DNA from: Natronomonas aquatica
GTDB lineage: Archaea; Halobacteriota; Halobacteria; Halobacteriales; Haloarculaceae
Reading direction: 5' to 3'
Assembly (NCBI RefSeq): GCF_024449025.1
Contig: NZ_JAHLKM010000015.1
Span: 1 to 63,661 of the forward strand
DNA length: 63,661 nt
Shown here: positions 44,570 to 50,146 of the stretch, in pieces
Position numbering within the stretch: position 1 is the stretch's first letter
How the letters are laid out: the number at the start of each line of letters is the position of its first letter
Position numbers and translations under genes: made by a program
Notes under the pieces: generated by a model
What the model was told of the DNA's origin: nothing
Database searches by the model: none
The model's input: only the letters and a program-made list of their open reading frames with translations

Positions 44570-45235
44570 ATGGGAGTTCTCGAAGACAAGGCCCGCGCCC
44601 GCCTTTTTTATAAGTACCTCTCGCGGGTCTACGATAGGGTCAACCCCTTCATCTGGAACGAGGAGATGCGCGATGAAGCTCTCGAGTGGTTCGGCATCGA
44701 GTCCGGGGACCGCGTCCTCGACGTCGGCTGTGGCACCGGTTTCGCGACCGAAGGGTTACTGGAGTACACCGACGACGTCTGGGGACTCGATCAGTCGGCC
44801 CACCAGCTCGAACGGGCGTTCTCGAAGTTCGGCAAGCGCGGCCCCGTACAGTTCTACCGCGGCGACGCCGAACGGCTCCCCTTCGCCGACGATACCTTCG
44901 ATGCCTACTGGTCGTCGGGATCGATCGAGTACTGGCCCGACCCCGTCGCGGCCCTCCGGGAGGCCCGCCGCGTGACGAAACCCGGCGGTCCCGTCCTGGT
45001 CGTCGGGCCGGATTACCCGAAGACGACGCTCTTCGGGGCGCTGGCCGACGCGATCATGCTGTTTTACGACGAGAACGAGGCCGACCGGATGTTCGCCGAG
45101 GCGGGGTTCGAGGCGTTCGAACACCGCATCCAACAGCGTGCGCCCGGGACGCCGCGGGCGATCACCACGATCGCGCGCGTGCCGGAGGCGGGACCGGCGG
45201 AGGGAGACGGATCGGCGCTCGGGGAGTCGAGCTAG
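44570..45235 (+). CDS. SAM-dependent methyltransferase (MPBQ/menaquinone type)
   Basis: 221-residue class I methyltransferase with motif I VLDVGCGTGFAT near 49-60, an acidic residue after GLDQ for SAM ribose binding, and the motif IEYWPDPVAALREARRVTKPGG. The N terminus (RLFYKYLSRVYDRVNPFIW) resembles enzymes methylating phytyl/prenyl benzoquinols and haloarchaeal quinone-related methyltransferases; a menaquinone role is inferred. Its TAG stop shares CTAG with the stop of the convergent pilin-like gene. TATA-like AGTTATGCCC about 30 bp upstream. Confidence 0.82.
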   Translation: MGVLEDKARARLFYKYLSRVYDRVNPFIWNEEMRDEALEWFGIESGDRVLDVGCGTGFATEGLLEYTDDVWGLDQSAHQLERAFSKFGKRGPVQFYRGDAERLPFADDTFDAYWSSGSIEYWPDPVAALREARRVTKPGGPVLVVGPDYPKTTLFGALADAIMLFYDENEADRMFAEAGFEAFEHRIQQRAPGTPRAITTIARVPEAGPAEGDGSALGESS

Positions 45236-45687
45236 GCGGTCGTCTCCAGTTCCGCGACGCTGTATCCGTCGACTGTAAGGCGGATTACGACGGTGTCGCC
45301 CGCCTCGATCGTCGGCTCGTTCGTCTCGGCGATACGGAGCGAGGCGGTCTCACCCGTCCGCCACGGCTCCGTCCTCGCGCTGTTGAACGCTCCTTTCGGG
45401 GCGCTCTCGAACCCCCCTGCCGAGAAGAACGGCACCGGCGGCTGCCGTTCGAGCGGATCGCCGTCGATCCGGATCTCGAGATCGATCGCCCCGGGATCGA
45501 TCGGATCCCCGCCCCGGTGGGTCATCCGGAGTTCGCCGGTCGGTTCGACGGACGCGTCGAAGGCTGCGACGGTCGGCTCGGAGGCGACGTCGGTCGGAAC
45601 CGCCAGTCCGACGACCGCCGCCAGTCCGACTGTAAGACCGACCAGACAGACGACACCGATGACGGGAGAGAGCCCACGGGAACGCAT
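45232..45687 (-). CDS. Type IV pilin-like secreted protein
   Basis: 151 residues. The N terminus MRSRGLSPVIGVVCLVGL is a class III (prepilin) signal: cleavage by PibD would follow Arg-Gly, leaving LSPVIGV, the haloarchaeal pilin N-terminal domain (DUF1628-like), and a hydrophobic scaffold helix to about residue 30. The remainder is a beta-rich external domain. Probably a minor pilin or pilus-anchored protein; no pilus assembly genes (pilB, pilC) are adjacent. Confidence 0.85.
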   Translation of the reverse strand: MRSRGLSPVIGVVCLVGLTVGLAAVVGLAVPTDVASEPTVAAFDASVEPTGELRMTHRGGDPIDPGAIDLEIRIDGDPLERQPPVPFFSAGGFESAPKGAFNSARTEPWRTGETASLRIAETNEPTIEAGDTVVIRLTVDGYSVAELETTA

Positions 45688-45709
45688 GGGCCCCTTGGTC
45701 GCCCGGTCG

Positions 45710-45719
45710 TATATAAACC
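45710..45719 (-). promoter_or_regulatory. TATA box for the pilin-like gene
   Basis: Minus-strand GGTTTATATA is centred about 27 bp before ATG 45687, one of the clearest TATA boxes in the window. Confidence 0.7.
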
Positions 45720-45732
45720 GTCGGCCGTCGCT

Positions 45733-46974
45733 TTACTCGAGATCCACGTCGAGCGAGATCGTCTCACCTTCGTAGGTCGCGTTTATCGTCGTCTGGCCGT
45801 GCGGCGCGACCGTCCAGAGTTGGTCGCCCCCGGTCGAGCCGATCGGATCGCCGTTCAACGCGACGTCGCCGTCGACCGGGCGCCCGGTCGTCGTATCACG
45901 GACGGCGATACCGATGGGGCCTCCGGCCCGGGTCGTGGTGGCGATGACCCGGAGGTCGCCGTCGGTTCGTCCGACGTTCGAGGAGGGAGCCTCGCGGACG
46001 TTGATCCACTGTCGTTCATAGAGGACGTCCGCCGACCCGCCGTCGAGATACGTCTCGAGGTTGCCGTGTGAGTGGGTCGCCCCGAAGCGATAGAGGCGGG
46101 CCTGCTCCGGGCCGAGCATGCTGATCGAGCTGAAACTGTCGATCGACCACGGGTACAGTTCCCCGAACCGTTCCAGGGCCGGCGATGGGTTTTCCCCGAA
46201 CTGGTCGTCGACGCCCTCGGTTTTCGCGGTCGGATCGTAGGCTTCCCGGAGGTACGTGTCGGTCGCCGGGTCGACAGTGGCGATAACGATGCCGTCCGCC
46301 GCCGTCTCGACGTGGATCCGGCCCGGACTGCCGCCGGCAAGAGCGGTGACGAGCCGCGTTCTAACCGGGCCGTCGGTCGGGACGAGCCGGACCCGCTCGG
46401 CGGCGGCGCGTTCGGCCACACGCTCGGCGCCGATCTCGTCGGCGGTCGTCTCCAGCCACTCGAGGGTGGCGTCTGTCTCGCTCGCCGACTGGCTGACGAC
46501 ACTGAGCGTCCACAGCAGTTCCCGCGTATCGATCTCACCGTCGCTGTAGCGCCGTACCGCGGTCCGTTCGGTCTGCCGCAACTCGTCGACCCGCTCGGCG
46601 AGGCGGTCGATCCCGTTCTCGACGATCTCGCGCCGTTCGGCGTCCGAGTCGGCGTCCCGGTATCTGCGTTCGAGCGTCGACCTCCGGTAGGCGCTCTCGA
46701 GTCCACGGGCGTCGGTCTCGACCGCAGCGGCGACGTCGAGACCGGTTCGTCGACCGTCGTTCCGGTCGGTCTCTCCCGGCGGCGGCGCGAGGTACTCGGA
46801 GGTGTTTTCGGGGGTCACGACCGTCATCAGCCGATCCGACTCCGCCGTCTGCTGGGGGAGGGGGTGAGATTGGGACACTGCGGTGTCCTCGCCGGACGTG
46901 TCGGCGACGACGACGCCGCCGATCGGGGCGATCGAGAGGAGGAGGGCGACCACGAGCACGCGAGCACCGACCAT
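45733..46974 (-). CDS. Secreted haloarchaeal protein (DUF7096-like), unknown
   Basis: 413 residues. A signal peptide (MVGARVLVVALLLSIAPIGG, cleavage near 24-26) starts an otherwise soluble protein. Residues about 75-205 are helical and Arg/Glu-rich (coiled-coil-like), residues 205-330 are mixed and the C-terminal 80 residues form an Ig-like beta domain (GPIGIAVRDTTTGRPVDGDV, ending TYEGETISLDVDLE). I associate this with DUF7096/DUF7094 proteins, tentatively. Divergent from the membrane regulator at 47127 (152-bp gap). TATA-like GTTTTTGTTC about 30 bp upstream. Confidence 0.7.
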   Translation of the reverse strand: MVGARVLVVALLLSIAPIGGVVVADTSGEDTAVSQSHPLPQQTAESDRLMTVVTPENTSEYLAPPPGETDRNDGRRTGLDVAAAVETDARGLESAYRRSTLERRYRDADSDAERREIVENGIDRLAERVDELRQTERTAVRRYSDGEIDTRELLWTLSVVSQSASETDATLEWLETTADEIGAERVAERAAAERVRLVPTDGPVRTRLVTALAGGSPGRIHVETAADGIVIATVDPATDTYLREAYDPTAKTEGVDDQFGENPSPALERFGELYPWSIDSFSSISMLGPEQARLYRFGATHSHGNLETYLDGGSADVLYERQWINVREAPSSNVGRTDGDLRVIATTTRAGGPIGIAVRDTTTGRPVDGDVALNGDPIGSTGGDQLWTVAPHGQTTINATYEGETISLDVDLE

Positions 46975-47126
46975 ATTCGGGTCTCGTTGCCGAAGAACAA
47001 AAACCCGGCCGTCTCGATCGGCGCGGAATCCAGCCGTCGAGAGGCCTCGAAACCGTTTATCCGGCCCGGAGACGTTTTATCCCGGTATGGAAAGTGTTTT
47101 GCCGCCCGGGTGTCCACGATCCAGGC

Positions 47127-48281
47127 ATGCGGTGTCGGGTCCCCACCCTGCTGTGTGCCCTCCTCGTCTGTTCTGTCGTGTTCGGGGCGGTCCCGGCAGC
47201 CGGACAGCAACAGACCGACGGGACCCACCTCGAGGTCCAACTCGAGGCCGACGGCGACGCGGCGTGGAACGTTACGACCCGGATCCCGATCGCCGACGGG
47301 CACGAACGCGAGACGTTCGAGACGTTCGCGAGTGATTTCGAGGCGGGCGAGAGCGGCTTCGATCTCGGAACGGACACCTTCGAGCAGGCGGCGACCGAGG
47401 CGAGCGAAGCCAGCGGCCGCGAGATGTCGATCGCGTCGGTCCGGCGTGAGAGCCGGATCGTAAACGACACCGGAGCGGACGGGGAGACGGAGCGATACGG
47501 CGTTCTCCGGCTATCGTTCACCTGGGAGTCGTTCGCGAGGGTCGGAGAGGAGAGGGCGATCTACGTCGACGACGCCTTTAACACCACCGACGGCACCTGG
47601 CTCCCCGGACTCGGGGCGAGCCAGTCGCTGACGATCCGGGCGCCGCCGGGGTACGGTGGCCCGACGACCTCGCCCGTGGGGGCCGAGGACGGCGACCTCC
47701 ACTGGGAGGGACCCGCGACGTTCGAGCCGGGGTACTTTTCGATCGTGTATCACCCGGTTTCGACGGGGCCGACCGAGGAGGAGGGGGAGGGGTCCGAACT
47801 CCCGACCGCCCTCGTCGGCGGGGCGATACTGCTGAGCCTCGCGGCGCTGTCGCTCGGTGTCTACCTGCTAGTGGCGCGCCGCCGGGGTGAGACGGCCACG
47901 GAGGACGACGAACAGCCCGTGGCGGCCGGCCCGGATGCGTCCGAGCCGTCGGCCCCCGGGACTCCGCCACCGGGGGAGAAAGCCGGGGGCGACGCCGACG
48001 GTTCGGCCGCGTCCGCAGTCGAGAAGGCGGACGACGAACCGGACTTCGAACTCCTCTCGGACGAAGAGCAGGTCGAGTACCTCCTCGAGCAGAGCGGCGG
48101 CCGGATGAAGCAGGCGACGATCGTCAAAGAGACCGGGTGGTCGAACGCGAAGGTCTCCCAGCTTTTGTCCTCGATGGCCGACGAAGACCGGGTCGACAAA
48201 CTCCGGATCGGCAGGGAGAACCTCATCAGTCTCCCCGGCGAGGGCGTCGGCGACATCGAAAGCGACACCGACGACTCCTGA
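47127..48281 (+). CDS. Membrane-anchored winged-helix regulator with external domain
   Basis: 384 residues. A signal peptide (MRCRVPTLLCALLVCSVVFG) is followed by an extracellular beta domain (about 30-215), a membrane helix (about 235-257, LVGGAILLSLAALSLGVYLL), an acidic linker and a cytoplasmic MarR/ArsR-type winged helix (about 310-375) containing QVEYLLEQSGGRMKQATIVK and GWSNAKVSQLLSSM. This topology would let an external signal control DNA binding directly. Similar membrane HTH proteins (DUF7345-type) are common in Halobacteria but poorly studied. Divergent from the secreted protein gene. Start 47127 retains the signal peptide; 47094 would add a non-hydrophobic extension. Confidence 0.8.
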   Translation: MRCRVPTLLCALLVCSVVFGAVPAAGQQQTDGTHLEVQLEADGDAAWNVTTRIPIADGHERETFETFASDFEAGESGFDLGTDTFEQAATEASEASGREMSIASVRRESRIVNDTGADGETERYGVLRLSFTWESFARVGEERAIYVDDAFNTTDGTWLPGLGASQSLTIRAPPGYGGPTTSPVGAEDGDLHWEGPATFEPGYFSIVYHPVSTGPTEEEGEGSELPTALVGGAILLSLAALSLGVYLLVARRRGETATEDDEQPVAAGPDASEPSAPGTPPPGEKAGGDADGSAASAVEKADDEPDFELLSDEEQVEYLLEQSGGRMKQATIVKETGWSNAKVSQLLSSMADEDRVDKLRIGRENLISLPGEGVGDIESDTDDS

Positions 48282-48386
48282 GACACGCGGCTGAACATTG
48301 TTCGAAATCCGGCGGGGGACGGCAAACGACGGACGTTTCGGAAACGTTTAATCGCGAACGTCCGTCAGTATAGCGTACCAGCCGTT

Positions 48387-49181
48387 ATGAAAATACTCGT
48401 CACAGTCAAAGAGGTAGCCGAAGTCGACGACGAGTTCGATATCTCCGGACTCGACATCGCCGAAAGCTCCCTCGAATACGATCTCAACGAGTGGGACGAC
48501 TACGCCGTCGAGGAGGCGGTCCAGACGAGCGAATCACACGACGACGTCGAGGTCGTCACCGTCACGGTCGGCCCCGAACGCGCCGAAGAGACGATCCGGA
48601 TGGCGCTGGCGAAGGGGGCCGACCGGGCGATCCGCGTGTGGGACGACACCCTCGAGGACGCCCAGTTCCTCGATGTCGAGACGAAAGCCGAACTCATTAC
48701 CGCCGTCGCCGAGGAGGAGGCCCCGGACCTCGTGCTCTCGGGCGTACAGGCCGGCGACGACGCCAACGGGGCGACGGGCGTCGCCGTGGCCGAGGAACTC
48801 GGCTTCGAGTGGGCCGCCGTCGTCAACCACCTCGAACTCGATGCCGACGCCGAAATCGCGTCCGTCCGCCGCGAACTCGAGGGCGGGATCGAAGAGCTCA
48901 CCGACGTCGAGCTGCCCGCAGTGTTGACGATCCAGACGGGGATCAACGAGCCGCGGTATGCGAGCCTCCGGGGGATCCGGCAGGCCCAGCGGAAGCCACT
49001 CGAGGTCAACTCCCTCGAGGATCTGGGACTCGACGCCGGCGTCGTCGACTCGCCCGTCGAGCGGACGTCGATGTACGAGCCGGAATCCGAAAGCGACGCG
49101 ACCGTCTGGGAGGGCAGCCCCGAGGAGACCGCGGGCGAGCTGGCGGCGTTCCTCCGTGATAAGGGGGTGGTCGACGGATGA
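48387..49181 (+). CDS. etfB: Electron transfer flavoprotein subunit beta
   Basis: 264-residue EtfB/FixA, AMP-binding partner of EtfA; carries electrons from acyl-CoA or similar dehydrogenases toward the quinone pool. Typical segments are MKILVTVKEVAEVDDEF, NEWDDYAVEEAVQT and VLSGVQAGDDANGATGVAVAE. A TATA-like CGTTTAATCG lies about 40 bp upstream (short leader). Its stop overlaps etfA by 4 nt. Confidence 0.94.
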   Translation: MKILVTVKEVAEVDDEFDISGLDIAESSLEYDLNEWDDYAVEEAVQTSESHDDVEVVTVTVGPERAEETIRMALAKGADRAIRVWDDTLEDAQFLDVETKAELITAVAEEEAPDLVLSGVQAGDDANGATGVAVAEELGFEWAAVVNHLELDADAEIASVRRELEGGIEELTDVELPAVLTIQTGINEPRYASLRGIRQAQRKPLEVNSLEDLGLDAGVVDSPVERTSMYEPESESDATVWEGSPEETAGELAAFLRDKGVVDG

Positions 49182-50146
49182 CGGTGCTGGCCGTCGCCGA
49201 ACACCGCCGGGGGGACCTCCGGGACGTCTCCTTCGAACTCGTGACCGCCGGCCGCGAGTTGGCCGACGAACTCGGATCCGACCTCGCCGTGGCCGTCATC
49301 GGCGGCGACGTCGAGGGATTCGTCGAGGAACTGAACCGCGAGGGCGTCGACACGATCTACACCGTTGCGGAGGGCGAGGAGTTCAACCACGGGATCTACG
49401 CACAGACAATCGAACAGCTTCACGCCGAACTCGACCCGGCGGCGCTTCTGTTGCCGAACTCGGTCAACGGGCTCGATTACGCGCCCGCGGTGGCCGAACA
49501 GCTCGATCTCCCGCTCGTGACCGACGTGATCGCCCTCGAGGGCAGCGATCCGGTCGAGGTCACCCGCGAGCAGTACGGCGGGAAAGTCGAGATAACCTAC
49601 GACATCGGCGCCGAGCAGTACGTCCTGACGGTCCGGCCGGCAGAGTGGCCGACGGCGACAGCGGGGGGCGAAGCGACCGTCGAGACTTTCGAGACCGACA
49701 TCGACGAGGGGGCGCTCGGGACGACCGTCAAGGGCTTCGAGGAGGTCGGCGCGGGCGATGTCGACATCACCGAGGCCGAGGTGCTGGTCTCGATCGGCCG
49801 CGGGATCGAAGAGGAGGAGAACATCCCGCTGATCGAAGCGCTCGCGGACGCCCTGGACGCGACGCTTTCGTCCTCGCGGCCGATCGTCGACAACGGCTGG
49901 CTCCCCCAGAACCGCCAGGTCGGCCAGTCCGGGAAGGTCGTCACGCCCGACGTCTACATCGCGATCGGGATCTCCGGGGCCGTCCAGCACGTCGCCGGCA
50001 TGAAAGGTTCCGATACGATCGTCGCGATCAACACCGACCCGAACGCGCCGATCTACGACATCGCGGATTACGGCATCGTCGACGATCTCTTCGAGGTCAT
50101 CCCCGCGCTCATCGAGGAGTTCGGCGGCGACGTCCCGGATATATAA
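49178..50146 (+). CDS. etfA: Electron transfer flavoprotein subunit alpha
   Basis: 322-residue EtfA/FixB with the C-terminal FAD site: [40 protein letters not shown] and [19 protein letters not shown]. The N-terminal domain is a standard partner of EtfB. Starts inside the etfB stop (GATGA). No ETF:quinone oxidoreductase gene follows; the next genes are trpCBA. Confidence 0.95.

Follow-up and report, generated by a model that had tools for sequence, protein, structure and literature searches.

Several membrane-bound transcription regulators that work across the cell envelope have been described. In the ToxR/ToxS and VtrA/VtrC systems (PMC9214523), a single-pass DNA-binding membrane protein is accompanied by an adjoining gene for an extracytoplasmic partner, and the outer parts evolve fast. 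Regulators with a DNA-binding domain and a transmembrane (TM) link between the outside and the inside are classed as one-component transmembrane transcription regulators (TTR, PMC10269533). In archaea, ArnR and ArnR1 of Sulfolobus are membrane-bound helix-turn-helix (HTH) regulators of the one-component type, linked to type IV pilus-like surface structures (PMC6396743). Here we describe a locus of Natronomonas aquatica (contig NZ_JAHLKM010000015.1; the window is the whole stretch analyzed, 63,661 nucleotides) in which a transmembrane winged-helix regulator lies head to head with the gene for a secreted DUF7096 protein. We give roughly even chances to the proposal that the two form an envelope-sensing system, with predicted contact between them and predicted DNA binding by the regulator.

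The pairing may best be read as an archaeal regulator with an extracytoplasmic partner, ToxR/ToxS-like in logic. The haloarchaeal pair shares with ToxR/ToxS and VtrA/VtrC the adjoining genes and the fast-evolving outer parts, but the domains appear unrelated. The haloarchaeal regulator has a signal peptide, an N-terminal outer domain and a C-terminal winged helix, while its partner, secreted and lacking a TM helix, is built of helical hairpins, DUF7094 and Fn3. In addition, the pair is class-wide and not a virulence cassette. ArnR differs in having an N-terminal HTH, HAMP-like and sensory regions beside TM anchors and no dedicated secreted partner, and no sequence-family link between ArnR and the haloarchaeal regulator was found in this analysis.

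Genes and predicted structures

The main features of the locus are:

47127..48281, + strand: transmembrane regulator with signal peptide, DUF7345 domain (amino acids, aa, 36-176), TM helix (aa 228-253), disordered linker and DUF7343 winged helix (aa 309-370)
45733..46974, - strand: secreted DUF7096 protein with signal peptide, helical hairpin/coiled-coil (aa 79-212), DUF7094 alpha/beta domain (220-328) and Fn3_arc domain (337-413)
45232..45687, - strand: type IV pilin-like protein (PF07790, TIGR02537, synteny), downstream of the DUF7096 gene
47086..47100, + strand: regulator-promoter element TATGGAAAGTGTTTT, 26 nt upstream of the regulator ATG
46999..47003, - strand: TATA-like TTTTT of the DUF7096 gene, 25-29 nt upstream of its ATG (sequence and conserved peak)

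A sequence-only reading of this DNA had proposed the three genes as a sensing module. Their positions and strands, and the 152-bp gap (46975-47126) between the divergent genes, are exactly as it gave them. The external beta domain and winged helix that it saw in the regulator were recovered by Pfam matches to DUF7345 (E 1.9e-42) and DUF7343 (E 3.9e-29) and by an AlphaFold2 model built with 57 orthologues. This model (mean pLDDT, the predicted local distance difference test, 77) has a confident beta-rich outer domain at residues ~31-215 (pLDDT ~95), a single TM helix at 228-253, a long disordered linker and a winged helix at ~307-370. The signal peptide, the TM prediction and a report of Haloferax glycoproteins (see below) place DUF7345 outside and the winged helix inside in a single-pass protein. 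The regulator has both the DNA-binding domain and the TM link of the TTR class. In a structure search its winged helix resembled those of the MarR, ArsR and Zalpha type (Z ~10 over ~60 residues), DUF7343 gave weak IclR/MarR-like sequence matches, and the recognition-helix residues did not vary in the 57 orthologues. The outer domain gave weak and mixed Foldseek matches. The regulator had no sequence match in PDB, and fold searches returned no convincing whole-chain relative of solved structure for either protein. Whole-model matches of the regulator to FMO and M1 peptidases, at TM-scores of ~0.15, have little meaning; only the winged helix matches well. Five DUF7345-containing proteins are encoded in the N. 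aquatica genome.

The secreted protein matched DUF7096 (E 1.1e-34), DUF7094 (E 4.9e-23) and the archaeal Fn3 domain (E 6.6e-14). Its AlphaFold2 model, built with 60 orthologues (pLDDT 88.8; predicted template modeling score, pTM, 0.84), contains helical hairpins, an alpha/beta domain and a C-terminal Fn3/Ig-like domain, in agreement with the coiled-coil and Ig-like end proposed earlier. By curated score both proteins are members of their Pfam families, and a literature search for DUF7345/DUF7343 and DUF7096/DUF7094/Fn3_arc found no naming paper, function or pairing. Matches of the DUF7096 model to STAT coiled coils and Fn3/MG domains were generic. A PepSY-like (YpeB/YycH type) identity for DUF7094 found no backing in a Pfam search of the 60 orthologues at E<=0.5, in which the 25 commonest families did not include PepSY. 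The third protein is prepilin-type, as had been supposed: it scored above cut-off against both Pilin_N (PF07790, E 2.7e-10) and TIGR02537 (E 1.8e-6), which models the N-terminus of archaellins and type IV pilins, and a class III signal peptide (RG/SPVIG-type site and N-terminal hydrophobic helix) is present.

Conservation of the regulator-DUF7096 pair

Conservation was surveyed in 145 haloarchaeal genomes. From 98 of these, 100 loci were fetched, deliberately taking all apparent exceptions from the hit tables, and family profiles were built. The secreted DUF7096-DUF7094-Fn3 protein, followed through DUF7094, is single-copy in 143 of the 145 genomes. Counting our own genome and leaving out G130, where the contig ends, the regulator and DUF7096 genes are head to head and less than 700 bp apart in 95 of 98 judgeable genomes. 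G029, G068 and G020 depart from this, G020 by having a gap of 1.6 kb. In a second set of 80 loci from named genomes, in which some species of the first set recur, 71 of the 77 untruncated loci have the same arrangement. These loci were found via the neighboring methyltransferase, because the DUF7096 alignment lacked sufficient conserved stretches to serve as bait. The conserved arrangement spans 10 families and 58 genera among the genomes sampled from the class, and the class median of the gap is 209 bp. The arrangement of the three genes is far beyond chance, and the regulator and secreted protein co-occur across haloarchaeal genomes as the sequence-only reading expected.

As a yardstick, linkage of neighboring genes was counted over 101 loci, with the window genes as queries for etfB and etfA. 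The methyltransferase and the pilin gene were each linked in 95 loci, etfB in 65 and etfA in 67, against 5 for an AAA ATPase, 5 for ilvE and 3 for trpC. The four-gene core of methyltransferase, pilin, DUF7096 and regulator is therefore special, yet its two sub-blocks are separable. In G124 the pilin and methyltransferase genes have moved off jointly while the regulator and DUF7096 genes stay, and in G066 neither lies beside the pair. Loci in which the regulator and DUF7096 genes have come apart naturally (L188, L203 and L208 in Halarchaeum, L238 in G029, L239 in G068) offer useful controls for claims of interaction or regulation. In G117 a shortened DUF7096 gene product of about 257 aa is encoded between regulator and pilin, with a full-length copy elsewhere (L053, L052), a natural swap or decay.

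Paralogues repeat the pairing. In N. aquatica itself, a second locus on another contig (G000:C19, L235:3911-6714) holds a short secreted coiled-coil protein matched by the DUF7096 orthologue profile (E 1e-11), a DUF7345 protein that lacks an HTH and ends in PGF-CTERM, and a convergent DUF7345-TM-DUF7343 regulator. Among 79 genomes surveyed, 60 have both a paralogous regulator and a DUF7096-like protein, and the two genes are adjacent in 45 of these 60. We inspected 41 paralogous loci, 40 of them fetched because both matches lay close, and the one in our own genome. The regulator precedes its partner on one strand in 29, follows it in 10, and lies on the opposite strand in 2; the module-1 DUF7096 profile recognizes the partners with E-values of 1e-5 to 1e-18. 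A third DUF7345-DUF7343 regulator of N. aquatica directly follows menF-menD (L236:2409-6923, G000:C31).

Co-variation of the outer domain with DUF7096

Using 86 non-redundant genomes, we calculated partial distance correlations, controlling for the distances of menG, etfB and etfA. The regulator outer domain correlated at 0.63 with DUF7096, compared with 0.42 with its own winged helix and 0.34 with the pilin. With DUF7096 cut to pilin length the value remains 0.55. This excess co-variation is consistent with a predicted contact between the outer domain and DUF7096.

The pilin gene lies 45 bp from the DUF7096 gene in the window (class median 56 bp), and it alone is missing in genus g3 and in G136. 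Since it was lost or relocated independently in these and in G066 and G124, and shows the lowest co-variation, its membership is weakly supported. Thus, of the three-gene module first proposed the regulator-DUF7096 pair is retained, and we regard the pilin gene as a conserved but separable linked surface gene, not a required part.

Promoter element in the gap

A 15-bp element, GATGGAAAGCGTTTT, is present in the gap of all 166 loci. Its class consensus, GATRGAAAGYRTTTT, was found in 166 of 166 orthologous gaps with at most 3 mismatches (99 exact), compared with 1 of 166 shuffled gaps, and mostly ends 25-29 nt before the regulator ATG. Where the regulator has relocated (G029, G068), the element stands in front of it at the new place. 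Where the DUF7096 gene has relocated (Halarchaeum; L289, L290), the element remains at the regulator, and the DUF7096 gene lacks it. The proposal that the shared gap acts as a common switch was thus not borne out, because the only strongly conserved DNA element sits in the core promoter of the regulator and travels with it. Upstream of DUF7096 there is a conserved TATA-like peak at -29 and no further operator-like conservation.

Aligned, the element holds ~24 bits; searched in the same way, the sequences upstream of DUF7096 and menG give no more than ~12 bits. In these loci the etfB promoter has a canonical CGAAAACGTTTA, which is conserved and lies equally far from the start. In the regulator promoter there are extra fixed bases, GAT before the transcription factor B recognition element (BRE) and G after AAA, and TTTT in place of the canonical TTTA. 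The element is an unusually constrained core promoter which may overlap an operator. It occurs at about one site per genome in congeners, and a multi-gene regulon motif was rejected on this count. It is absent from the 12-kb regions of our own genome that hold two paralogous regulators, whose recognition helices differ, and the sequences upstream of module-2 regulators match it poorly.

Wider gene neighborhood

The sequence-only reading overlooked that the polyprenyl synthase gene (idsA), menG and etfBA are members of the same conserved neighborhood. The seven-gene order menG-pilin-DUF7096-regulator-etfB-etfA-idsA is widely conserved (window 44570-50146; L036-L215) and joins surface genes to quinone and isoprenoid genes. 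The other features in the window are:

44570..45235, + strand: menG-equivalent S-adenosylmethionine methyltransferase (Methyltransf_11/UbiE-like match; synteny; equivalent of HVO_0309)
48387-49181, + strand: etfB, frequent neighbor with an electron transfer flavoprotein (ETF) domain
49178-50146, + strand: etfA, frequent neighbor (window gene used as query)
48337-48350: etfB core promoter TTCGGAAACGTTTA, conserved over the class, 24-26 nt from the start codon
42715-43002: short fasciclin-domain open reading frame of 95 aa with a twin-arginine-like start; part of the domain is matched, and it is possibly truncated

Haloferax loci have the same seven-gene order. HVO_0309 is annotated as menG, for menaquinone biosynthesis, and HVO_0303 is idsA2 (PMC8305020), so that the order fits HVO_0309 to HVO_0303 and makes HVO_0306 the regulator and HVO_0307 its DUF7096 partner, an assignment by gene order and annotation and not by direct sequence comparison with H. 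volcanii. HVO_0306 was reported as a 'probable transmembrane glycoprotein/HTH domain protein', Sec-exported and an O-glycosylation candidate, and HVO_0307 as secreted, with 3 AglB-dependent N-glycosites and 201 spectra (PMC8241124). The same report lists HVO_1944 as a TM glycoprotein/HTH protein and HVO_1945 as secreted with 4 N-glycosites. From annotation and adjacency, our guess is that HVO_1944/HVO_1945 is a module 2 pair; CdrS binds upstream of HVO_1944 (PMC8406309). In both cases an HTH glycoprotein adjoins a secreted glycoprotein and all were detected glycosylated, but they were reported as glycoproteins only, without a regulatory role. CsmR (HVO_1209), a small Lrp/AsnC-type protein, is unrelated to the regulator.

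Alternative explanations

The secreted protein had been suggested as ligand or target of the regulator, and the ligand or partner role is better supported. DUF7096, with or without the pilin, could instead be repressed or activated through the shared gap without its product being sensed. Divergent regulator-target pairs are a common layout, and the gap is short. However, the DUF7096 side shows only its TATA-like peak, the element follows the regulator in loci where the two genes are apart (L238, L239, Halarchaeum), and the genes of module 2 are mostly co-directional and need no divergent promoter. We therefore consider such a target role unlikely and DUF7096 more likely to be an input or partner, given that the element belongs to the regulator. 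The seven genes might also be unshuffled core genes without a shared function: menG and pilin are linked almost as tightly as the pair, and unrelated-looking metabolic genes share the neighborhood. This passive synteny is rather improbable, since the association survives the changed gene orders of the paralogues; moreover, the ilvE, trpC and AAA ATPase neighbors are not conserved, the pair persists where pilin and menG leave, and the outer domain co-varies in excess with DUF7096. Least probable of all, and in our view quite improbable, is a module tied to menaquinone and electron transfer, which would respond to the respiratory or membrane state and act on menG, etfBA or idsA. The conserved order (PMC8305020) and the joint relocation of idsA with the regulator in G068 favor it, but the etfB promoter resembles a normal core promoter, and a shared operator was not found among these genes. 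A menaquinone link by way of the paralogous regulator that adjoins menF-menD was abandoned, since in other genomes this regulator is not next to menD.

Another alternative concerns the autoregulation step alone and is compatible with the pairing. The 15-bp element may be only the core promoter, BRE and weak TATA, of a leaderless transcript, and we place this somewhat below an even chance. Its distance from the start codon and the strong conservation of the etfB promoter point in this direction; the extra fixed bases, the non-canonical TTTT and the much lower values upstream of DUF7096 and menG point away from it.

Some observations weigh against the regulator-DUF7096 sensing pair. Regulator and DUF7096 are apart, with both kept, in three Halarchaeum species, G029 and G068, so adjacency is not obligatory. 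DUF7345 also occurs outside Halobacteria (20 of 60 phylum genomes sampled, 7 of these haloarchaeal); the regulator family is thus broader than the class and may also work without a DUF7096 partner. Distance correlations can reflect shared lineage-specific rates. Finally, part of the element's conservation reflects ordinary promoter function, because it lies where BRE and TATA are expected and strong conservation is seen in the etfB core promoter as well (18.8 vs 21.0 bits). As a whole, the interpretation from sequence is partly supported, and its central pairing is near-universal in the class.

Proposed mechanism and implications

In the sensing pair as we envisage it, DUF7096 would bind, or be monitored by, the outer domain of the regulator, as ToxS for ToxR. 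The amount or conformation of DUF7096 at the cell surface would then set DNA binding by the winged helix. The first DNA site would be the element in the regulator's own promoter, and the simplest output would be autoregulation, because this predicted site overlaps the BRE/TATA; the invariant recognition helix helps this suggestion.

To our knowledge, it is largely unknown how archaea sense the state of their S-layer (surface layer) or outer surface, and few archaeal membrane-bound transcription regulators have been studied. More broadly, though doubtfully, such modules may be class-wide core signaling, with at least two per genome, in which membrane winged-helix regulators read the glycosylated surface via dedicated secreted partners. 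The locus offers candidates for the sensor and for its extracytoplasmic partner together with a predicted DNA site. With these, and with equivalents amenable to genetics in Haloferax volcanii, the question of surface sensing can be tested directly.

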